64,000 nucleotides of DNA from positions 1,860,001 to 1,924,000 of the forward strand of contig JAPNXP010000013.1 of NCBI GenBank assembly GCA_028753945.1, read 5' to 3'. The position numbers were made by a program, and so were the translations under genes. Source of the DNA: Hexactinellida sp. DTS-2022. Lineage: Eukaryota; Porifera; Hexactinellida. This document shows, in pieces, positions 16,316 through 38,879 of this stretch (within the stretch, counting starts at the first letter, position 1; each line of letters starts with the position of its first letter). The notes below the pieces were generated by a model, which was not told the origin of the DNA, ran no database searches, and saw nothing but the letters and a program-made list of their open reading frames with translations.

Positions 16316-17301
16316 AATGGCAGCTGCTCTTTTTCTAGTTGATCTAGATTCTTCTTGGAGTTTATCACGGCAGAGAGTATTTCGAGATAGGTTAAATCCT
16401 TTTGATATGTATGATGAAATCGACTTTATTTCACGATACAGAGTTACAAGGGATATTTTCATTCAACTCGAAGAGAAAGTTTTACGTTCCTGCATCGGCC
16501 AACAGTTCGATCCCATGCTATTCCTGCGCCACTAAATTAGCTGTCTCGTTACAGTTTTTGGCCACTGGTTCTTTCCAAACTGTGGTTGCTTCATCACATG
16601 GAATATCTCAACCATCAGTTTCCAGATGTATTCACACAGTTTCGGATGTATTATGCTCTTATGCTAAAGAATTCATAGTCTTCCCAAGCGAATATGAGCA
16701 ATTGATTAATCAACAAGTGTTTTCTGAAAGATATTGCTACCCCAAAGTTTTAGGTTGTATCGATGGTACGCATGTACCCATATTGGCACCTCAAGAGAAT
16801 GAAGATATTTTTGTGAATAGGAAGAACTTTCACTCTATCAATATTCAGGCAATATGTGATAGTAAATTGAAATTCATTGACGTCGTCGCCAAGTGGCCAG
16901 GAAGTACTCACGATGCATTCATTTGGAAGCAGTCTGTGATCAATAGAAAAATTTTACATTGAGAAATACCAACGGTAGATTGTTGGTTTCTAGGAGATAG
17001 CGGATATCCTCTTAGACCGAATCTTCTCACGCCGATACTTTATCCCGTAACTCCGGGCCAGAAATGATACAATCGATCCTTTTTGAAACACGGATTAATA
17101 TTGAGTGCGCGCTTTTTGATTATGGAAGAGTAGATGGTGATCAATGGACAAAACAGGAGGAACCTTGTATTATTCTCCAGAACGTGTATGTAGATTAGCA
17201 GTAGCAACTATGGTATTGCATAATATATGCATTGATCATGGCTTACAAGGGGAAGTAGATGTTATTATGCAAGAAGATGGTATTAGTGTTCCTTCAAATT
17301 A
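16316..17301 (+). pseudogene. HARBI1-type DDE transposase, broken
   Basis: The Harbinger transposase cuts and inserts the element DNA in the nucleus. The start MAAALFLVDLDSSWSLSRQR lies 310 bp inside the left end. The N-terminal part (16316-16532) reads through YRVTRDIFIQLEEK, then the frame shifts near 16500. The second frame (to 16962) carries HGISQPSVSRCI (helix-turn-helix), CIDGTHVPI (first catalytic Asp) and KWPGSTHDAF (second DDE-region Asp). A stop at 16960 precedes FLGDSGYPL (third acidic motif) and the IECAF region with the expected Glu, which has further frame breaks. Coding order and length (~330 codons) match HARBI1. It is inactive as written. The partner Myb-like gene is still open. 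Confidence 0.88.
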
Positions 17302-17502: not shown

Positions 17503-18201
17503 TTAAAAGGGTAGAGGAAGTGGTAGGAGGAAAGTAGTAGGATTTGATTCAAAATGCTGGTGCATTTGAGGTGTTGCATTGGCTAGAAATTTATTTTGTG
17601 TACCAGCTATCTGTCCTAAGAGATCTACCATACAATCCATCTTTTGGTCGATGCTTCTTAATAGCCATATTTTCAGCCTTTCATTTTGTAAAATACACTT
17701 CTTCATTGCTTGGTCAATTGGATCACTCGTATCGTCAGAAAGTTTCCGCTTCCTAGGTGGCTTCATCTCTTCAGAAATTGACATATCTGAATCACTCAGC
17801 GCCAGCGGGCTGATTGGCGAGGCACATAGGTCGATTCCTCCTAGAATTCCAATAAATAGTTCCTTTCCTTTAATACTCTCCAGCTTTGCTTCGAGTTCTG
17901 TAAGTTCGGCTTCAGGAGAGCCCCCACCAGTTTTGAGAGCTGAAGCAATTTTGTCACTTATAAGTGGCTTGTGCTTTGCCAAAACATTTGACCACTTCTT
18001 GGCGACATCTTCTTTACTCCTCAAACTTCCATGCGCCTGTGATAGAGCTTCTGCTATTTCTTTCCAGACATTATTTTTCTCTTCATAGGTCAAAGATGAA
18101 CTTAATGAACCAAAGAGTTGGGACTTGTTATCATTAACTAAGTCTACTAGCATTGAAATCTCATCAGATGAAAAGTTCTTTGAACGAGTCTTAATCGACA
18201 T
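17503..18201 (-). CDS. Myb/SANT-like DNA-binding partner protein of Harbinger
   Basis: The complete 232-codon frame starts MSIKTRSKNFSSDEISMLVD. Residues about 9-75 form a Myb/SANT-like trihelix domain (FSSDEISMLVDLV, W46 in NNVWKEIAEAL, W70 in AKKWSNVL), followed by a linker with a basic patch (PPRKRK) and a C-terminal amphipathic helix (QNERLKIWLLRSIDQKMDCM). In Harbinger elements this second protein binds the element ends and helps carry the transposase into the nucleus. It converges with the transposase gene, about 200 bp apart. Unlike its neighbour it has no internal stop, which may mean recent decay of the transposase or support from other copies. Confidence 0.85.
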   Translation of the reverse strand: MSIKTRSKNFSSDEISMLVDLVNDNKSQLFGSLSSSLTYEEKNNVWKEIAEALSQAHGSLRSKEDVAKKWSNVLAKHKPLISDKIASALKTGGGSPEAELTELEAKLESIKGKELFIGILGGIDLCASPISPLALSDSDMSISEEMKPPRKRKLSDDTSDPIDQAMKKCILQNERLKIWLLRSIDQKMDCMVDLLGQIAGTQNKFLANATPQMHQHFESNPTTFLLPLPLPF

Positions 18202-18303
18202 TGATGTTCGTAGTATTATTAGAATGATTGATGAAGTTGTAACGGAAGTTGTAATCCAGCAAAGATACCGAGATTTTATATCTTTTTAAAAGATAACCAT
18301 GAC

Positions 18304-29214: not shown

Positions 29215-30500
29215 GGTTCCAGCCATAGACTCCTTTAGATAAGGAATGGAACGTCGCGATCTCAGGGTTTTTAACTTGAGTGTGAGAGGCTCCAATTATA
29301 AAAATTGAAAAAGCATTAGGTTTCCGGTTTCCAAGTGTGATTTTTGGCATATAGGGGTAACCTTTGGCACCCGTCAACAATTTGAGTTTTTCACTCAAAG
29401 TTTCTCACACCTCGACAAGTTATGACGTCATCGTCACATTTCGAGAACCCTGAAAAGTCACTTAATCGCACATAATTCCGCACTCTAAGGGATAAAAATC
29501 TGAAAATTTCATCGAACATGGACATTAATGATGCGGACTCTTTGGTCACACCAGATTGCCAATATGCTTGCTCATTATCACATGGTGACGTAATCACTAA
29601 AATTTCACATTTTAAAAATTGACTGTTTAGGCCTGTTGTATGACGGTTTACTTACCATGACAGTTTACTCACCTCTATTACTATAACAATAATTAACCAT
29701 GGATACTTTTTATCCATGACGGTTTACTTACCGTCTTTGCTATATGGCTTCAGACTTTATACTTCCTATTACGCATTAGCACTTATAAGGATTCACATCT
29801 CAAATTCTAATTGGAAAAAGTCATTATGGCCCAAAATATCTAATGCTAATATGGAAATTATTAAATGCTATGTTGATGCAATGGCAAATTATAAAATATG
29901 CGGTTGGTGTGTGGTTGGGTTCTGCCGCGAATCACGATAGTATCTATATACATTGATGCTACAGTATATCTATATAGACTAGGGCGCCTCGCTTTCTGGG
30001 TCGCTTTGTGGCAGAACCCAACCACACACCAACCGATTTGCGGTTGGTGTGTTGTTTATACACTTCTAACATTTATTATAAAGCGTAAATAGGCCTAAAC
30101 AATCAATTTTTTAAATGCGAAATTTTACTGATTACGTCACCTTGTGATTATGAGTAAGCATATTGGCAATCTGGTGTGACCAAAGTGTCCGTATCATTAA
30201 TATCCATGTTCGATGAAATTTTCAGATTTTTATTCCTTAGAGTGCGGAATCATGTGCGATTAAGTGACTTTTCAGGGTTCTCGAAATGTGACAATGACGT
30301 CATAACTTGTCGAGGTATGAGAAATTTTGAGGGAAAACCTCAAATTGTTGACGGGTTCCAAAGGTTACCCCTATATGCCAAAAATCACATTTGGAAACCG
30401 GAAACCTAAAGCATTTTAATTTAAATAAATGGAGCCTCTCAGACTCAAGTTAAAAACCCCGAGATCGCGACGTTCCAGTCCTTATCTAAAGGAGTCTATG
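29215..30500. mobile_element. Two Helitron-like copies tail to tail (430-bp-arm palindrome)
   Basis: A + strand copy (about 29215-29940) and a minus copy (30500-29979) face each other with their 3' ends inward. Each has the family body ('ttatgacgtcat', 'gacgtaatcactaaaatttc'), the hairpin GCGGTTGGTGTGTGGTTGGG and, in the minus copy, CTAG at 29979-29982. The arms also share about 115 bp beyond the body ('ccatagactcctttagataa', 'cgtcgcgatctc') absent from 11006 and 47212. The central 40 bp between the tails is unrelated. A 'gacggtttac' repeat lies at 29643-29735 inside the + copy. Confidence 0.65.
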
Positions 30501-31016: not shown

Positions 31017-31505
31017 GTACCCCTGGTATAAACGAGGTCTGGACCATTATAGTCGGGTCAAAATATAAAGCAAATACCCGCAACCCCAAAAAAATTGCAA
31101 GAAATTGTTTTATTACATTTTTCCGTAGTATCATGTATGGAGAATAACATACTAAAAGTCTAGCAAATCGGACTTCCAAAAGTATAAAAAATGGGGTCCA
31201 AAAGTTTATGTCCGGTCGAAAATCGCCGGTTTTGTGTATCCACGTTAGCCAATTTCAATCCATTAAAAACAACCCATTGTTGTCATATTCGTACTCAGCA
31301 TCAAATTTCCGGCAATTTAATATATATTTTGACCAATTTTTTCTTGAATCCTACCTAACAACGTCCTGGTAGGTGAAAATTTATGATCTCCATTTTGGTA
31401 GAAACCATATCGAGTGACCCCTTGTTTTTCTCGGCTATGCTTACTGAGTACGAATTAGCTAATATAAATACTCAAACGGTTTAATTTGGAAATATTATAG
31501 TTTAC
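31017..31505. repeat. Left inverted terminal repeat of the 5.5-kb transposon
   Basis: Matches 36058-36552 in reverse complement. Shared blocks, outside to inside: GTACCCCTGG / GTATCCTTGG, 'atagtcgggtca', 'aaaaaaattgcaagaaattg', 'catactaaaagtctagc', 'cgaaaatcgccggttttgtg', 'ccttgtttttctcggctatg', 'actgagtacgaattagctaa' and 'aaatattatagttta'. The 40 outermost bases keep equal spacing but have diverged, so the exact tip is uncertain by tens of bases. Confidence 0.8.
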
Positions 31506-31644
31506 GGATGGGGGATATTAAATTCTTCATTAAATGGAAATAAATAATAAAACTCGTTATATTTTGTATTGTTTTTCCAATTTTGTCTAAAAAATTATTT
31601 CCAAATAATTTACTAATATTTGTATCAGCATATTAGATATTGAT

Positions 31645-32826
31645 ATGAGCGCGAGCCAAGAAATTTGCCCTTTGTGTGAGAATGAGGTAGAAGGATACGC
31701 AAGAGTGGTCATTGGTGAGAAAGGGGCAGAAGGCATCAACAGGGCAAGCATTGAGAGAGGTGACACCATCGTGGTAATAGCGGGGACAGGCGTTCACAAG
31801 TTATGTCGGAAAAATTATGTCAACAACACATACATCGAGTTATATAAGAAGAATGCCAATCTAAGACCACCAAAGCAATTAAAAAGAAGTGCACGTGTTT
31901 CCACAGGACCATATGATAGTAAGATAGACTGTCTGTTCTGTGGAAATGAAGTAGTGAAGAGCACTATTAGTGCGAATTATGACGACTTTAGCTATGTCAA
32001 AACTGATTCATTCGTGCAGTCGATTTTGTCACATTGTAAACAACGAAATGATGAATGGGGCTTTACTGTGCTAGGGCGAATCGAGTACTTTGGGAGAGAC
32101 ATGCACGCTGCTGATAGTTTGTACCATCGTTCATGTGATATACATTTTCGAACAACCCGGGATATTCCTATACAGCACAAAGCAGACGACCCTATTCACA
32201 AGAAACAAAGGAAGATTGGGAGGCCAAAGGACAGTGACCAAGATCTAGCCTTCCGAAGAATGTGCTCCTTCTTTGAGGAAAATGATGAAGAACAATTGAC
32301 AATCACCTGTCTTTCGAGTAAGATGAAAGAGTATCTGAAAGAACGAGATTGTGTTGCCTATGGTCATCAGTATCTGAAGTCGATACTGTTGGAACATTAT
32401 GGGGAGTCTATATTCATTGCCGAGGGTGAAGGATTGCATGATATTGTAACATTCCGCGAGAAGACTAATCAAATCCTGAGAGAATACTTCAGCATGCCAA
32501 TAGTGGATGATGAGGAATCCCAGAAGAGACTCATCATAGAGACTGCAGCCAGACTTGTCAAGAGTGACCTCAAGTCGAAGAACTCCCCTATTACTGATGA
32601 GTATCCAAAAACTTCTGAACTTGAGATACAGTCAGCCTTAGAGTATGTTCCAACGAGCTTGCGTTATTTTCTCCTATGTATCCTTGTTGGAAAGGACACT
32701 CGCCGGAAAGTAGCAAGCATTGGACATTCAATTGTCCAAGCAGCACGTCCCAGAGTTTTGATTGCCCCATTACAGCTTGGCTTAGCTGTCCAGATGCACC
32801 ATCATTTCAGGTCACGTTTTTGGTAG
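31645..32826 (+). CDS. Transposon ORF 1: paired C2HC-type zinc fingers
   Basis: 393 codons from MSASQEICPLCENEVEGYAR. Two similar fingers: C8-C11 with H51-C54 (VHKLCRKNYVN), and C96-C99 with H161-C164 (YHRSCDIHF). Each has a CxxC knuckle and a helix-borne HxxC, as expected for DNA binding at transposon ends. A basic linker (KKQRKIGRPKDSD, AT-hook-like GRP) follows, then a helical region. The start is the first Met after the left repeat, 140 bp inside it. The ORF stops at 32826, but coding resemblance continues without a gap in the next frame (LVDSLSAMGFCSSY), a one-base frame change at a run of five T. The C-terminal 5-6 residues of this frame are therefore probably not native. Nuclear role inferred. 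Confidence 0.75.
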   Translation: MSASQEICPLCENEVEGYARVVIGEKGAEGINRASIERGDTIVVIAGTGVHKLCRKNYVNNTYIELYKKNANLRPPKQLKRSARVSTGPYDSKIDCLFCGNEVVKSTISANYDDFSYVKTDSFVQSILSHCKQRNDEWGFTVLGRIEYFGRDMHAADSLYHRSCDIHFRTTRDIPIQHKADDPIHKKQRKIGRPKDSDQDLAFRRMCSFFEENDEEQLTITCLSSKMKEYLKERDCVAYGHQYLKSILLEHYGESIFIAEGEGLHDIVTFREKTNQILREYFSMPIVDDEESQKRLIIETAARLVKSDLKSKNSPITDEYPKTSELEIQSALEYVPTSLRYFLLCILVGKDTRRKVASIGHSIVQAARPRVLIAPLQLGLAVQMHHHFRSRFW

Positions 32827-34229
32827 ATAGCCTCTCAGCCATGGGCTTTTGCTCCTCATATTCTGAGGTTCAGAGATTCGAGGAAAATGCTGCGGCTTCC
32901 GTTGCACCAGATGTACTAGGTGGTGATAGTAACAGACTAGATATGACGCTGTTGTTTGTGGCCGACAACGTAGATCATAACATTGTTACCTTGGATGGAA
33001 AGGAAACATTCCACGGCATGGGGATGATGGCAGCCATAACACCAGGAAAGCAAGTCTGTCAGTCTATATTCATACGAAAGCTTTCGAATTTACATATAGC
33101 TGACCTGACCAAAGTTGATGTTAAACAATACCGGTTCTCGGCACACTTGCGTCGCAGCATTAAATTCCAGCCATTGTCATTCCTTGAAGCTGCTGATCAC
33201 AGGATAGATATACTGTGGGAAATGTCCTTCCGATTCAAACAATCTGTACCGAATTGGCAGGGAATGATGCACGTTTTGCACAAGGACTGTAAGCACCCAG
33301 GACAATCCTCTGTGATATTCTTACCAATGATTGATATGTACCCCGGGGACAAGACATGTATCTTCTCAACACTTGAGTATCTGTGCAAGCTCGCTTTCGA
33401 GCACAAAAGCCCAGCAATTGTCACATTCGACCAACCGCTTTACTGGAAAGCTTCACAAATAAAACAAGAGGTACCAGATGACAGTCCAGTTCGAGGCGTT
33501 GTGTTGCTACTGGGAAGCTTTCACACTTTCATGAACCTTCTTGGGGCCATAGGAACACTAATGGATGGTAGTGGAATCAAAGAGATTCTTGGGGCCATTT
33601 ACGGTGATAACGCAGTATTACACATGATGAGCGGAAAGGCAGTTCAACGGGCATTCCGTGGACATCTCCTTATTGATCAGTGTCTTACTCAACAAGTTGC
33701 AGACGAAGTAATCACTGACCAGCCTGCATTTAAAAACCTATTGCAGGAACTAGAGAAGTTATATACTAAAACATTGATGGGTGAGTCTGACTTCAATTCA
33801 CACATCCAATCCGAGTGCTTAAAGGAAACGATCCGCGTGTTGTCCACCAAAACACATGAACTATCCGCTCGATCTGAAACAAGCAAGCTGTGGCTAAGTT
33901 ATAAGCAAATGGTAGGAGTTGCCCGGGAGCTGATTGAAGCAGATCGTACAGGCTCTTGGAAAATGCACCTTCATGCATTGTCGGCCTGTTTACCCATATT
34001 TGCAGCAGCTGGACATGCAAATTATCTGAAAACTGCCTACCTCTACCTCCAGACTATGAATGAACTAGAAAACGAAAACCCGTCTGTATTCCATAAGTTC
34101 TCGAATCGCTTCCACGTAATCAGACGTAGTGACCAGTATTGGGCAGGCCTCGGTTGCGATCTGGTCATCGAGCAATCTCTTATGCGGTCGATTAAAAGTA
34201 TAGGGGGCTCACTCGAGGAAGCGGAATGA
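32812..34229 (+). CDS. Transposon ORF 2: RNase H/DDE-like transposase region
   Basis: The open frame begins at 32676, but its first ~45 codons overlap ORF 1 and are low-quality; the believable part starts near 32812 (TFLVDSLSAMGF). Candidate acidic motifs: LLFVADNVDHN (about 32961), TFDQPLYWKA (33422) and DLVIEQSLMR (34160), giving a D-D-E-like order. Other striking blocks are TFHGMGMMAAITPGK and LLLGSFHTFMNLLGAIGTLM, followed by HMMSGKAVQRAFRGHLLID, a conserved-looking helical insert. The DDE assignment rests on motif spacing only and is an inference. It ends with SIGGSLEEAE and stop TGA overlapping the ATG of ORF 3 (ATGA). The frame change coincides with a run of five G at 34203-34207. Confidence 0.65.
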
Positions 34230-36052
34230 CCGAACATCAGCGAGCTCTCTGGACTATGTCTTCACATGTGTTAGCAAACTACAATGATGCAATGCAGGGT
34301 TTTACCCGCCAGATATTCACTACCAGTGAACAACACAAGGAGGCAACAGCGTCCAGGATGAACAGAGATCATGCAGACATGAAGAAGTTAGTAGAGAAAC
34401 TCCAGCCATTTTCTCCATTCTCTGATGAAGCATCTTTACGTAACATAATTACTGGTGTTAATGCAAACAAGGATGTTAATGTTCATAACCTGTTCACCAT
34501 CGGCAAGGGCACAGTAGGGAAAATGGAAGGACATGAGGTATTTTCCTTTTCATACAAAAGAAAGATGAAGGTGAAGACAATGGCATCAGCGAGGGCAATC
34601 GAAGTGACCGAGGACAGAACAATAGATCCAGCTTTGTTGTTCCAGAGGTTTCTTGTAGTTTCGCAATCAGGAGACCTGTCGCTAGATGAAGTAATGGACC
34701 ATGAACTTTCGCCATACCCTCCATCACTATTTCAGGCTAAGAATCAGTTAAGGCAGCCAGATAAGCCACAGTTTCGTGACGCTCTGAAAGAACATCTCAA
34801 AATCCATTCAGATGGCGCAGGCCTGCTAGAGTATGTTCCCGAAGTGGAACATTACGTTCTAGATGGGGGTTCCCTTCTGCATCGCTTGAAATGGGCTGAA
34901 GGAAGAACCTACAGTTCAATCGCTGATGACTATACATCATTCACTGTAGAACATTATGGCAATGCCACCGTTGTCTTTGATGGCTACAGCGGAGGTCCAA
35001 CTACAAAGGACAATACCCATCAGCGACGACGAAGAAAGAATCGGGTTGGCAACAAAGTAAATATCACCGAAGCAACCGTCTTCATTGGGAGTAAGGAGGA
35101 TTTCCTTTCCAATCAATTCAACAAACAGGCCCTCATCTGTCTCATTTCCGAACGTATGAGGAAAAGAGGTTGCCACGTCATACAAGCTGAGGGAGATGCC
35201 GATGTTACCATTGTGAAGGCAGCAGTATTAATGACATCCTTCAAAACAACAACTCTCCTAGGGGAGGATACTGATCTGTTCGTTCTGTTGTTGCACTGCA
35301 CATTTAACAACAATGCAAAGAAGATTTATTTCCGCTCTGATAAAGGGATACCAACAGTAGTGTATGACATAATGGTCATAAAGCAGATGCTTGGAGTCAA
35401 CATCTGCCAAAGTCTGCTTTTTCTTCACGCATTCACCGGGTGTGACACAACTTCCAGCATTTTTGGGCTCGGGAAAAAGTCTGCATTACACAAAATGATG
35501 AAAGAAGATTCCGTCTTACAAAGCTACGCTAGGGTATTTTCTACACCAAAGCATGACCCAGCTGTGATAGTAAGCACTGGTTGCAAATCCATGATTGCAT
35601 TGTTCAATGCAAAGCCTGGTGACAGTCTTCGAGACTTGAGATATAATATCCTCTGCAAGAAAGTTTGCGCAGCCAAAAGCTTCGTGACACCAGAAAGGCT
35701 GCCACCTACTGTTTCTGCAACGAAATTTCACTCTCTGAGGAGTTATCTCCAGGTAATGTTGTGGATGGACATGGCTGACGGTATGGAGGTCACCGAATGG
35801 GGATGGGGCCGCCAAGGTAACAGCCTAATCCCAGTCATGATGGACACTAATCCTGCACCCGAAGCAATTTTGAAAATGATACACTGTAACTGTTCTACCG
35901 GGTGTAGTACACACAAGTGTAGCTGCAGGAAACAAGGACTTAACTGTTCTCATGTATGTGGACGATGCCAAGAACACAACTGTGACAATATGGGCGAGTG
36001 GGTAGCATCAGATGATGATAATCAAGAAAATGTGAAGGTATCTTTCTGCTAA
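34226..36052 (+). CDS. Transposon ORF 3: FEN1/XPG-like nuclease plus tesmin/TSO1 CXC domain
   Basis: 608 codons from the ATG at 34226, but the same frame is coding-like a few codons upstream (GLTRGSG). Region 1-230 is helical. About residues 245-430 resemble the XPG/FEN1 fold of the PIN superfamily: VVFDGYSGGPTTKD (XPG-N-like Asp), EGDADVTIVKAA then LLGEDTDLFVLLL (acidic metal-binding pair), and FTGCDTTSSIFGLGKKSALH, matching the helix-hairpin-helix of flap nucleases. Residues about 552-590 form one CXC repeat: CNCSTGCSTHKCSCRKQGLN, then CSHVCGRCQEHNC, as in tesmin/TSO1 DNA-binding proteins. Flap cleavage could help process strand ends or gaps at transposition; that role is inferred. Stop is 6 bp before the right inverted repeat. 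Confidence 0.75.
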   Translation: MTEHQRALWTMSSHVLANYNDAMQGFTRQIFTTSEQHKEATASRMNRDHADMKKLVEKLQPFSPFSDEASLRNIITGVNANKDVNVHNLFTIGKGTVGKMEGHEVFSFSYKRKMKVKTMASARAIEVTEDRTIDPALLFQRFLVVSQSGDLSLDEVMDHELSPYPPSLFQAKNQLRQPDKPQFRDALKEHLKIHSDGAGLLEYVPEVEHYVLDGGSLLHRLKWAEGRTYSSIADDYTSFTVEHYGNATVVFDGYSGGPTTKDNTHQRRRRKNRVGNKVNITEATVFIGSKEDFLSNQFNKQALICLISERMRKRGCHVIQAEGDADVTIVKAAVLMTSFKTTTLLGEDTDLFVLLLHCTFNNNAKKIYFRSDKGIPTVVYDIMVIKQMLGVNICQSLLFLHAFTGCDTTSSIFGLGKKSALHKMMKEDSVLQSYARVFSTPKHDPAVIVSTGCKSMIALFNAKPGDSLRDLRYNILCKKVCAAKSFVTPERLPPTVSATKFHSLRSYLQVMLWMDMADGMEVTEWGWGRQGNSLIPVMMDTNPAPEAILKMIHCNCSTGCSTHKCSCRKQGLNCSHVCGRCQEHNCDNMGEWVASDDDNQENVKVSFC

Positions 36053-36057
36053 GTCTC

Positions 36058-36552
36058 CAGCCGTAAACTATAATATTTCTAAATTAAACCGTTAGAGTAT
36101 TTATATTAGCTAATTCGTACTCAGTAAACATAGCCGAGGAAAACAAGGGGTCACTCAATATGGTATCTACGAAATTTGGAGATCAGGAAATTCACATTCC
36201 TGGCCGTTGCTATGGAGGTTTCCATACAAAATTCCCCCAATATGGTCAAAATATATATCAAATTGTCGAAAATTTGATGCTGAGCACAAATATGACAACA
36301 ATGAGTTGTTTTAAATGCATTTGAAATGGCTAACGTGGATACACAAAACCGGCGATTTTCGACAGGACACCAACTTTTGGACCCCATTTTTTTCACTTTT
36401 GGTTGTCCGATTTCGCTAGACTTTTAGTATGTTAATCCCCATACATGGTACTACGGAAAAATGAAATAAAACAATTTCTTGCAATTTTTTTGAGGTCATA
36501 CAACATATTGACCCGACTATTAGTGACCTTTTTGATGTCATTCCAAGGATAC
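36058..36552. repeat. Right inverted terminal repeat of the 5.5-kb transposon
   Basis: Reverse complement of 31017-31505 at roughly 80 percent by eye. It begins directly behind the ORF 3 stop codon. It also contains 'ggggtcactca..cacattcctggccgttgctatgga', a block shared with the MITE at 60407-60960 and the fragment at 44500-44645. Confidence 0.8.
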
Positions 36553-37438: not shown

Positions 37439-37610
37439 ATAATAACTAGGATTTAGCAATTGATGCACAACATTTTGTTAGAAAACTTTGGTACTATTAA
37501 GCGTCACATGATTTGCAAAATCAAGTCCAGAGAACGGATGCTAAATGGCATTGCGTTAAAACATAGTGTCATTGTTAATTAAAATGGTCCAGTTGAATCA
37601 AATGTAATAC

Positions 37611-38680
37611 CATAGCATTCTATACTCTAAGGCAATGCCGCGGTTGAATGGACTTGGACCATGGATGAACTAGTATAGTCAACTAAATATATGCAATGCA
37701 ATTATTCTTCGAAATAAGTAATCCAGGGTGCTTCTACTTATGTAAATGTTTTATATAAAGGTGGTCATGTACAAGACGCATATTTTTTGAGGTGCCACTT
37801 GTCGAAATGACGTCACCGTATTATCTAATAGGCAAAATATGCCAAAACTTTGAACGCATGTAAAATGTTCAATTTCGCTTTTTCAAACAAATTGGTGTGA
37901 TTAACCCATCTAGGAGCTATTTTACATAAAATATCTCAGAATCAGTTAAGGAATGTTATCACATTCCTCTGTTGCCTTGGAAACATGAATTCAATGATTG
38001 AGGTAATATCTCGAGTAGGAATATAGTCACAGCTTAGTCAATGGATCCAATCGATAGCCCGTCCTTAACTTCCTATTCAATGATAATACATTTCGATGCT
38101 CTATCTCCAACCAATTTTCTCAGATTTGTGATTATTGTAAAATACAATCAAATGATTATACACGTTTTACATAAAATTGGTTGGAGATAGAGCATCGAAA
38201 TGTATTATCATTGAATAGGAAGTTAAGGACGGGCTATCGATTGGATCCATTGACTAAGCTGTGACTATATTCCTACTCGAGATATTACCTCAATCATTGA
38301 ATTCACGTTTCCAAGGCAACAGAGGAATGTGATAACATTCCTTAACTGATTCTGAGATATTTTATGTAAAATAGCTCCTAGATGGGTTAATCACACCAAT
38401 TTGTTTGAAAAAGCGAAATTGAACATTTTACATGCGTTCAAAGTTTTGGCATATTTTGCCTATTAGATAATACGGTGACGTCATTTCGACAAGTGGCACC
38501 TCAAAAAATATGCGTCTTGTACATGACCACCTTTATATAAAACATTTACATAAGTAGAAGCACCCTGGATTACTTATTTCGAAGAATAATTGCATTGCAT
38601 ATATTTAGTTGACTATACTAGTTCATCCATGGTCCAAGTCCATTCAACCGCGGCATTGCCTTAGAGTATAGAATGCTATG
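37611..38680. mobile_element. Foldback element, 1,070 bp, near-perfect palindrome
   Basis: Left arm 37611-38115 and right arm 38171-38680 are complementary over about 505 bp with very few mismatches (for example A/G at about 37986/38306). The spacer is about 55 bp. Ends CATAGCATTCTATACTC. GTAATAC repeats directly on both sides (37604-37610, 38681-38687). No ORF. The subterminal 'cattcctctgttgccttggaaac' block links it to 9356-9850 and 38880-39260. Arm identity means recent origin or continued arm correction. Confidence 0.9.
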
Positions 38681-38879
38681 GTAATACATAATATCATATA
38701 ATTTCAGAATTATTGTGAAATGCAATATATAATAATAATATTATTAATTTTACCGTGACCTTCGTTATATAAGGCCTTACTACTACTCCGAACCATGGAT
38801 TACTTAAAGTCCATTGATAAATAGGTTATTTAGAATTATCTCCATAACTAGTAGTGATAGACGTCATAAATGTACTATA

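Follow-up and report, generated by a model that had tools for sequence, protein, structure and literature searches.

A nuclease-bearing DNA transposon, probably of the AcademX type, in a hexactinellid sponge genome

We analysed a 64,000-nt stretch of contig JAPNXP010000013.1 of Hexactinellida sp. DTS-2022 (assembly GCA_028753945.1, positions 1,860,001 to 1,924,000 of the forward strand), referred to here as the window, whose numbering is used for all coordinates. The 5470-bp segment between positions 31050 and 36519 is a genuine transposon, a "jumping gene". Judged from its features, it is probably an autonomous-type DNA transposon of 5.5 kb that belongs to AcademX, the nuclease-bearing lineage of the Academ superfamily; the copy in the window is frame-broken. 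The 1463-amino-acid protein of the family, read from a sister copy, carries in order two CxxC...HxxC zinc-finger-like motifs, a region with conserved D, D and E, a nuclease domain of the XPG/FEN1 type and a CXC-like cysteine cluster.

The borders were set by comparison with sister copies from the organism's own genome, which was searched over 112 Mb in 18 contigs. There, 136 pieces matched the element, a figure that covers the best candidates only, counts both repeat arms and is not a copy number. Besides the window copy, L031 and L032 are near full length and 98.7% and 98.1% identical to it, and from this likeness of about 98% we infer fairly recent activity. Aligning the genomic copies to fix the ends and the target duplication, as the first-pass annotation had proposed, placed both ends 33 bp inward of the borders it had first drawn and revealed a 3-bp target-site duplication. 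The inverted repeats that it had described are indeed present, although they measure about 460 bp instead of about 490 bp because the ends sit inside those borders. Their arms pair at 31083-31167/36412-36496 (93%), 31165-31335/36243-36413 (89%) and 31394-31511/36057-36174 (93%), and both termini of the element match, beginning TAGTCGGGTCAA.

Copy ends were compared between the window copy and 15 other loci. Five copies had both ends at or near the consensus, and four of the five are flanked by an exact 3-bp duplication: TTA in the window, TAT at L031, TGC at L032 and AAT at L033. At L040 the left end was found and no consensus right end lay at the extrapolated position, while ten further loci are single-ended (at L042 and L043 the extrapolated end was not consensus); L040 and these ten loci cannot be scored for a duplication, since two consensus ends were not seen. 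Two elements from outside the family agree with a 3-bp duplication. A relative of about 5.07 kb on contig C16, which represents a second family with about 40% protein identity, has TAGTCCAG ends flanked by AAA left and right, a weaker reading because a run of A precedes its left end. On contig C5, a 1283-bp non-autonomous element (L034:5495-6777) has TAGTCC ends, long inverted repeats and TTA on both sides. Matches of about 73% to the repeat of the window element occur at six places in the genome, L034 among them, paired about 0.7 kb apart. Multiple copies with common termini and with 3-bp duplications at four of the five two-ended copies support the terminal-inverted-repeat transposon originally proposed, and given the shared ends and duplications we reject a host gene fusion.

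The coding unit of about 4.4 kb described by the first-pass annotation holds as a stretch, but it is split into three frames in the window copy and forms a single frame in the sister copy L032 (1475 amino acids from stop to stop, 1463 from the first methionine). Because L032 is open throughout, the three frames of the window represent one protein, and on the same ground we reject exons split by introns. Relative to both sisters, the window copy lacks one letter near 32.82 kb and one near 34.2 kb, both breaks lying in or beside short single-base runs, and an extra letter near 36.03 kb alters its final residues; either mutation or assembly error may have produced the breaks. The reading frame of L031 is broken too. 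All peptide motifs quoted by the first-pass annotation are present in the window translations.

The assignment of an XPG/FEN1-type nuclease domain is well supported by sequence comparison. Residues 208-436 of coding segment 3 are colinear with the host protein L048 (21% identity over 267 alignment columns), which a PDB match identifies as EXO1 (E 2.1e-96). Nuclease residues 201-450 were compared with pieces of three host proteins: EXO1 and two others that we read as XPG-like (L049) and GEN1-like (L050). EXO1 gave 40.8 bits against 26.6 for the best of 500 residue shuffles, and the XPG-like protein gave 25.8 bits against 23.9 for the top of 500 shuffles, so that both scores beat every shuffle. 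In a profile comparison with hhalign (ten family sequences, eight of them kept, against four host XPG-type sequences), the family matched the host proteins with a probability of 88% and a pair E of 2.9e-6, over residues 332-442 of P0002 only.

Consistent with this similarity, P0002 positions 222, 261, 333, 335, 357, 359 and 416 carry D or E in each member that covers them, with ten of ten members at one position and nine of ten at the other six, where the tenth has a gap. By residue numbering we take these seven positions to match the carboxylates of the FEN1/XPG family. Several of the ten members are near-duplicates (L054/L055/L057 and L058/L059), so the independent nuclease lineages number only about six; the acidic positions are retained in lineages as low as 23% identity. 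All ten members have a lysine behind the second acidic residue, and in the sequences read an arginine stands seven residues past it, which the alignment puts in a neighbouring column. Colinearity, agreement at seven acidic positions and a helix-hairpin-helix-like motif, GLGKKSA, liken the domain to EXO1, FEN1 and XPG, whereas the identity of 21% to host EXO1 and its embedding in a transposon protein set it apart. The FEN1/XPG-like nuclease suggested at first pass is thus supported by similarity above shuffles, profile comparison and conserved acidic residues. Across the genome, XPG_I hit six places, all of them outside the element, and P0002 alone gave no match in PDB. Two EXO1-like loci, L048 and L052, lie on contig C4 of the same genome. 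One of them is long and open; the other, a shorter piece that aligns with it at 78% identity, may be a pseudogene or a duplicate.

Upstream of the nuclease, the C16 relative retains all four Cys/His pairs of both zinc-finger-like motifs. The candidate catalytic D, D and E are found again in L064, at about 40% identity, and in L065, at 20-24%, and are thereby kept in the three lineages that cover these positions; the GGxH/GSxH motif of the core is common also to L066. Of the DDE-like core claimed by the first-pass annotation, the conserved residues stand, whereas the fold found no support from structure or libraries; for that reason a D/D/E transposase core is something we infer, and regard as plausible. 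DUF6589 gave a weak colinear lead on the 1463-amino-acid protein (17.4 bits against a Pfam cut-off of 27), and we found no literature tying DUF6589 to transposition.

At the other end of the protein, the cysteine spacing of the tail fits CXC domains. The pattern appeared in none of 20,000 tail shuffles, a figure that overstates the case because the pattern was written after the tail had been seen. Seven of eight aligned tails, the window's included, retain most of the cluster, and L055 is without its second half. Below the cut-offs, Pfam TCR matched four of the eight tails and preSET_CXC four of the eight; none reached the cut-off of TCR (tesmin/TSO1 CXC), the best E being 0.33, and the window's own tail matched preSET_CXC only (E 1.5). 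The tail profile A4 drew ten weak PDB matches, all to one histone methyltransferase (best E 0.055). The tails resemble Tesmin/LIN54 and pre-SET CXC domains in cysteine spacing and in these TCR and preSET_CXC matches, and differ from them in that all fall under the curated cut-offs; it is to this extent that the tesmin-type CXC domain seen at first pass is upheld. Elsewhere in the genome, on contigs C3, C12, C16, C17 and C18, five open frames match TCR (CXC) below the threshold, each with 21.3 bits; these look like a further repeated family with a CXC domain.

According to PMC10045372, AcademX elements have target duplications of 3 or 4 bp and AcademH elements of 9 or 10 bp, a difference linked there to an encoded nuclease versus an encoded helicase; curated bivalve Academ elements average 5565 bp (PMC10294476). 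Compared by description only, the window element resembles AcademX in combining a putative transposase core with a nuclease at about 5.5 kb, in duplicating exactly 3 bp at four of five two-ended copies, and in carrying an XPG-type domain instead of a helicase (no helicase family matched the 1463-amino-acid protein at Pfam E <= 1). AcademH would belong to the same superfamily if this filing is right, but it has a helicase and 9-10 bp duplications (PMC10045372), neither of which the window element shows. Because length, 3-bp duplication and the transposase-plus-nuclease combination match AcademX, the first-pass statement that no described superfamily has this domain order is probably wrong: nuclease-encoding AcademX elements with 3-4 bp duplications are described in PMC10045372, and the element is most likely of an already described kind. 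In the open literature we found no text spelling out the XPG or CXC part of such a transposon, which is no proof that none exists. Pattern searches of viral and prokaryotic contigs gave 0, 3 and 38 matches, not one of which was confirmed as a relative, and PDB searches with profiles A1 and A3 each gave two matches that were not credible (best E 1.1 and 0.15).

Several points weigh against this assignment. L038, an older, rearranged copy with two ends, reads CCA/CAA and has no exact duplication. No Pfam or NCBIfam family, XPG_I included, reaches its cut-off on the protein, and XPG_I matches none of the ten family members. The GEN1-like host protein scores 21.9 bits, within its shuffle range (best of 500 shuffles, 27.7), a PDB profile search with the core gave no credible match, and a single-sequence structure model of coding segment 3 reached a pLDDT of 31.8 and was discarded. 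We take it as background that AcademX encodes an XPG-type nuclease, and likewise the XPG and zinc-finger features of the Academ proteins in print. The filing is based on features of the element and not on a tree with named Academ proteins.

An undescribed superfamily that independently joined a DDE core, an XPG nuclease and a CXC tail would sit well with a protein that no library family covers at cut-off and with a comparison that included no named Academ reference. Length, 3-bp duplication and the pairing of transposase and nuclease nevertheless fit what is printed for AcademX and Academ, and we consider such a superfamily very unlikely. Less likely still is membership of a different DDE superfamily that is already known, such as Kolobok, in which nuclease-bearing lineages also occur. 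Kolobok elements duplicate TTAA at their targets, which misfits TTA, TAT, TGC and AAT. Their lineages carry lambda-exonuclease-like, DEDDh and His-Me nucleases (PMC9587614), and none of these named nucleases is XPG-like. Whatever the superfamily, the nuclease-like domain might be a catalytically dead DNA-binding remnant, as its overall identity to EXO1 of just 21% and its escape from the curated XPG models would allow; acidic residues at seven of seven positions in every covering relative, down to 23% identity, make this improbable, if slightly less so than the two alternatives above.

Features of the transposon in the window, with strand and basis of each call
Feature	Position	Strand	Basis
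Left target-site duplication, TTA	31047..31049	.	Read directly; same letters at 36520-36522
Left terminal inverted repeat, begins TAGTCGGGTCAA	31050..31511	+	Repeat arms and sister ends
Coding segment 1 (from ATG): zinc-finger-like motifs and lead-in to core	31645..32826	+	Frame breaks near 32.82 kb
Two CxxC...HxxC zinc-finger-like motifs	about 31666-31809 and 31930-32139	+	Segment 1 sequence
Coding segment 2: putative D/D/E transposase core	32817..34229	+	Frame breaks near 34.2 kb
Candidate catalytic D (ADNVDHN)	32964-32966	+	Conservation; P0004 residue 441
Candidate catalytic D (FDQPL)	33429-33431	+	Conservation; P0004 residue 596
Candidate catalytic E (DLVIEQ)	34170-34172	+	Conservation; P0004 residue 843
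Coding segment 3: linker, XPG-like nuclease, CXC-like tail	34196..36052	+	Open reading frame
XPG/FEN1-like nuclease domain	34811..35533	+	EXO1 similarity, hhalign, acidic positions
Nuclease acidic residues (codon starts)	34862, 34979, 35195, 35201, 35267, 35273, 35444	+	Alignment
CXC-like nine-cysteine cluster	35885..35983	+	Cysteine spacing, sub-threshold Pfam
Right terminal inverted repeat, finishes TTGACCCGACTA	36057..36519	-	Repeat arms and sister ends
Right target-site duplication, TTA	36520..36522	.	Copy-end comparison

Other repeats and transposon remnants lie in the window. An inverted repeat of 335 nt (93%) at 29303-30422, immediately upstream of the element, resembles other window repeats and is possibly a small non-autonomous transposon; immediately downstream, a perfect inverted repeat of 517 nt, its arms separated by 54 nt, occupies 37602-38118 / 38173-38689. 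Farther upstream, a DDE_Tnp_4 (Harbinger-like) transposase fragment at 16396-16962 (+; E 2.7e-15) and a Myb/SANT-like open reading frame at 17503-18285 (-; E 5.8e-15) are perhaps one Harbinger element.

The element has moved with a 3-bp duplication, and its nuclease-type domain is under constraint. In an AcademX-type transposon built in this way, the N-terminal zinc fingers, perhaps with the CXC tail, would bind the long inverted repeats, and the D/D/E core would cut the 3' ends and join them to the target strands at a spacing of three base pairs. Single-strand/double-strand junctions may then be trimmed by the XPG domain, whether at the 5' end that stays on the donor or at the flap of the target joint. 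It is conceivable, if rather unlikely, that the XPG domain serves as a second-strand nuclease, the D/D/E core cutting the transferred strands and the flap nuclease the other strands or the joints, and so helps to set the 3-bp duplication; such a division of labour would be akin to that of TnsB and TnsA of Tn7.

In the C16 relative, fingers, core, nuclease and CXC-like tail follow one another as they do here, and core, nuclease and tail are also retained in two lineages of about 20-25% identity. We know of no experimental test of the role of a built-in nuclease in transposition, although no literature search was aimed at such experiments. Retention of these domains across lineages suggests that the nuclease belongs to the transposition mechanism and is not a passenger, and this genome offers a nuclease-bearing kind of transposon both in one copy with an unbroken frame and in several lineages that have diverged.

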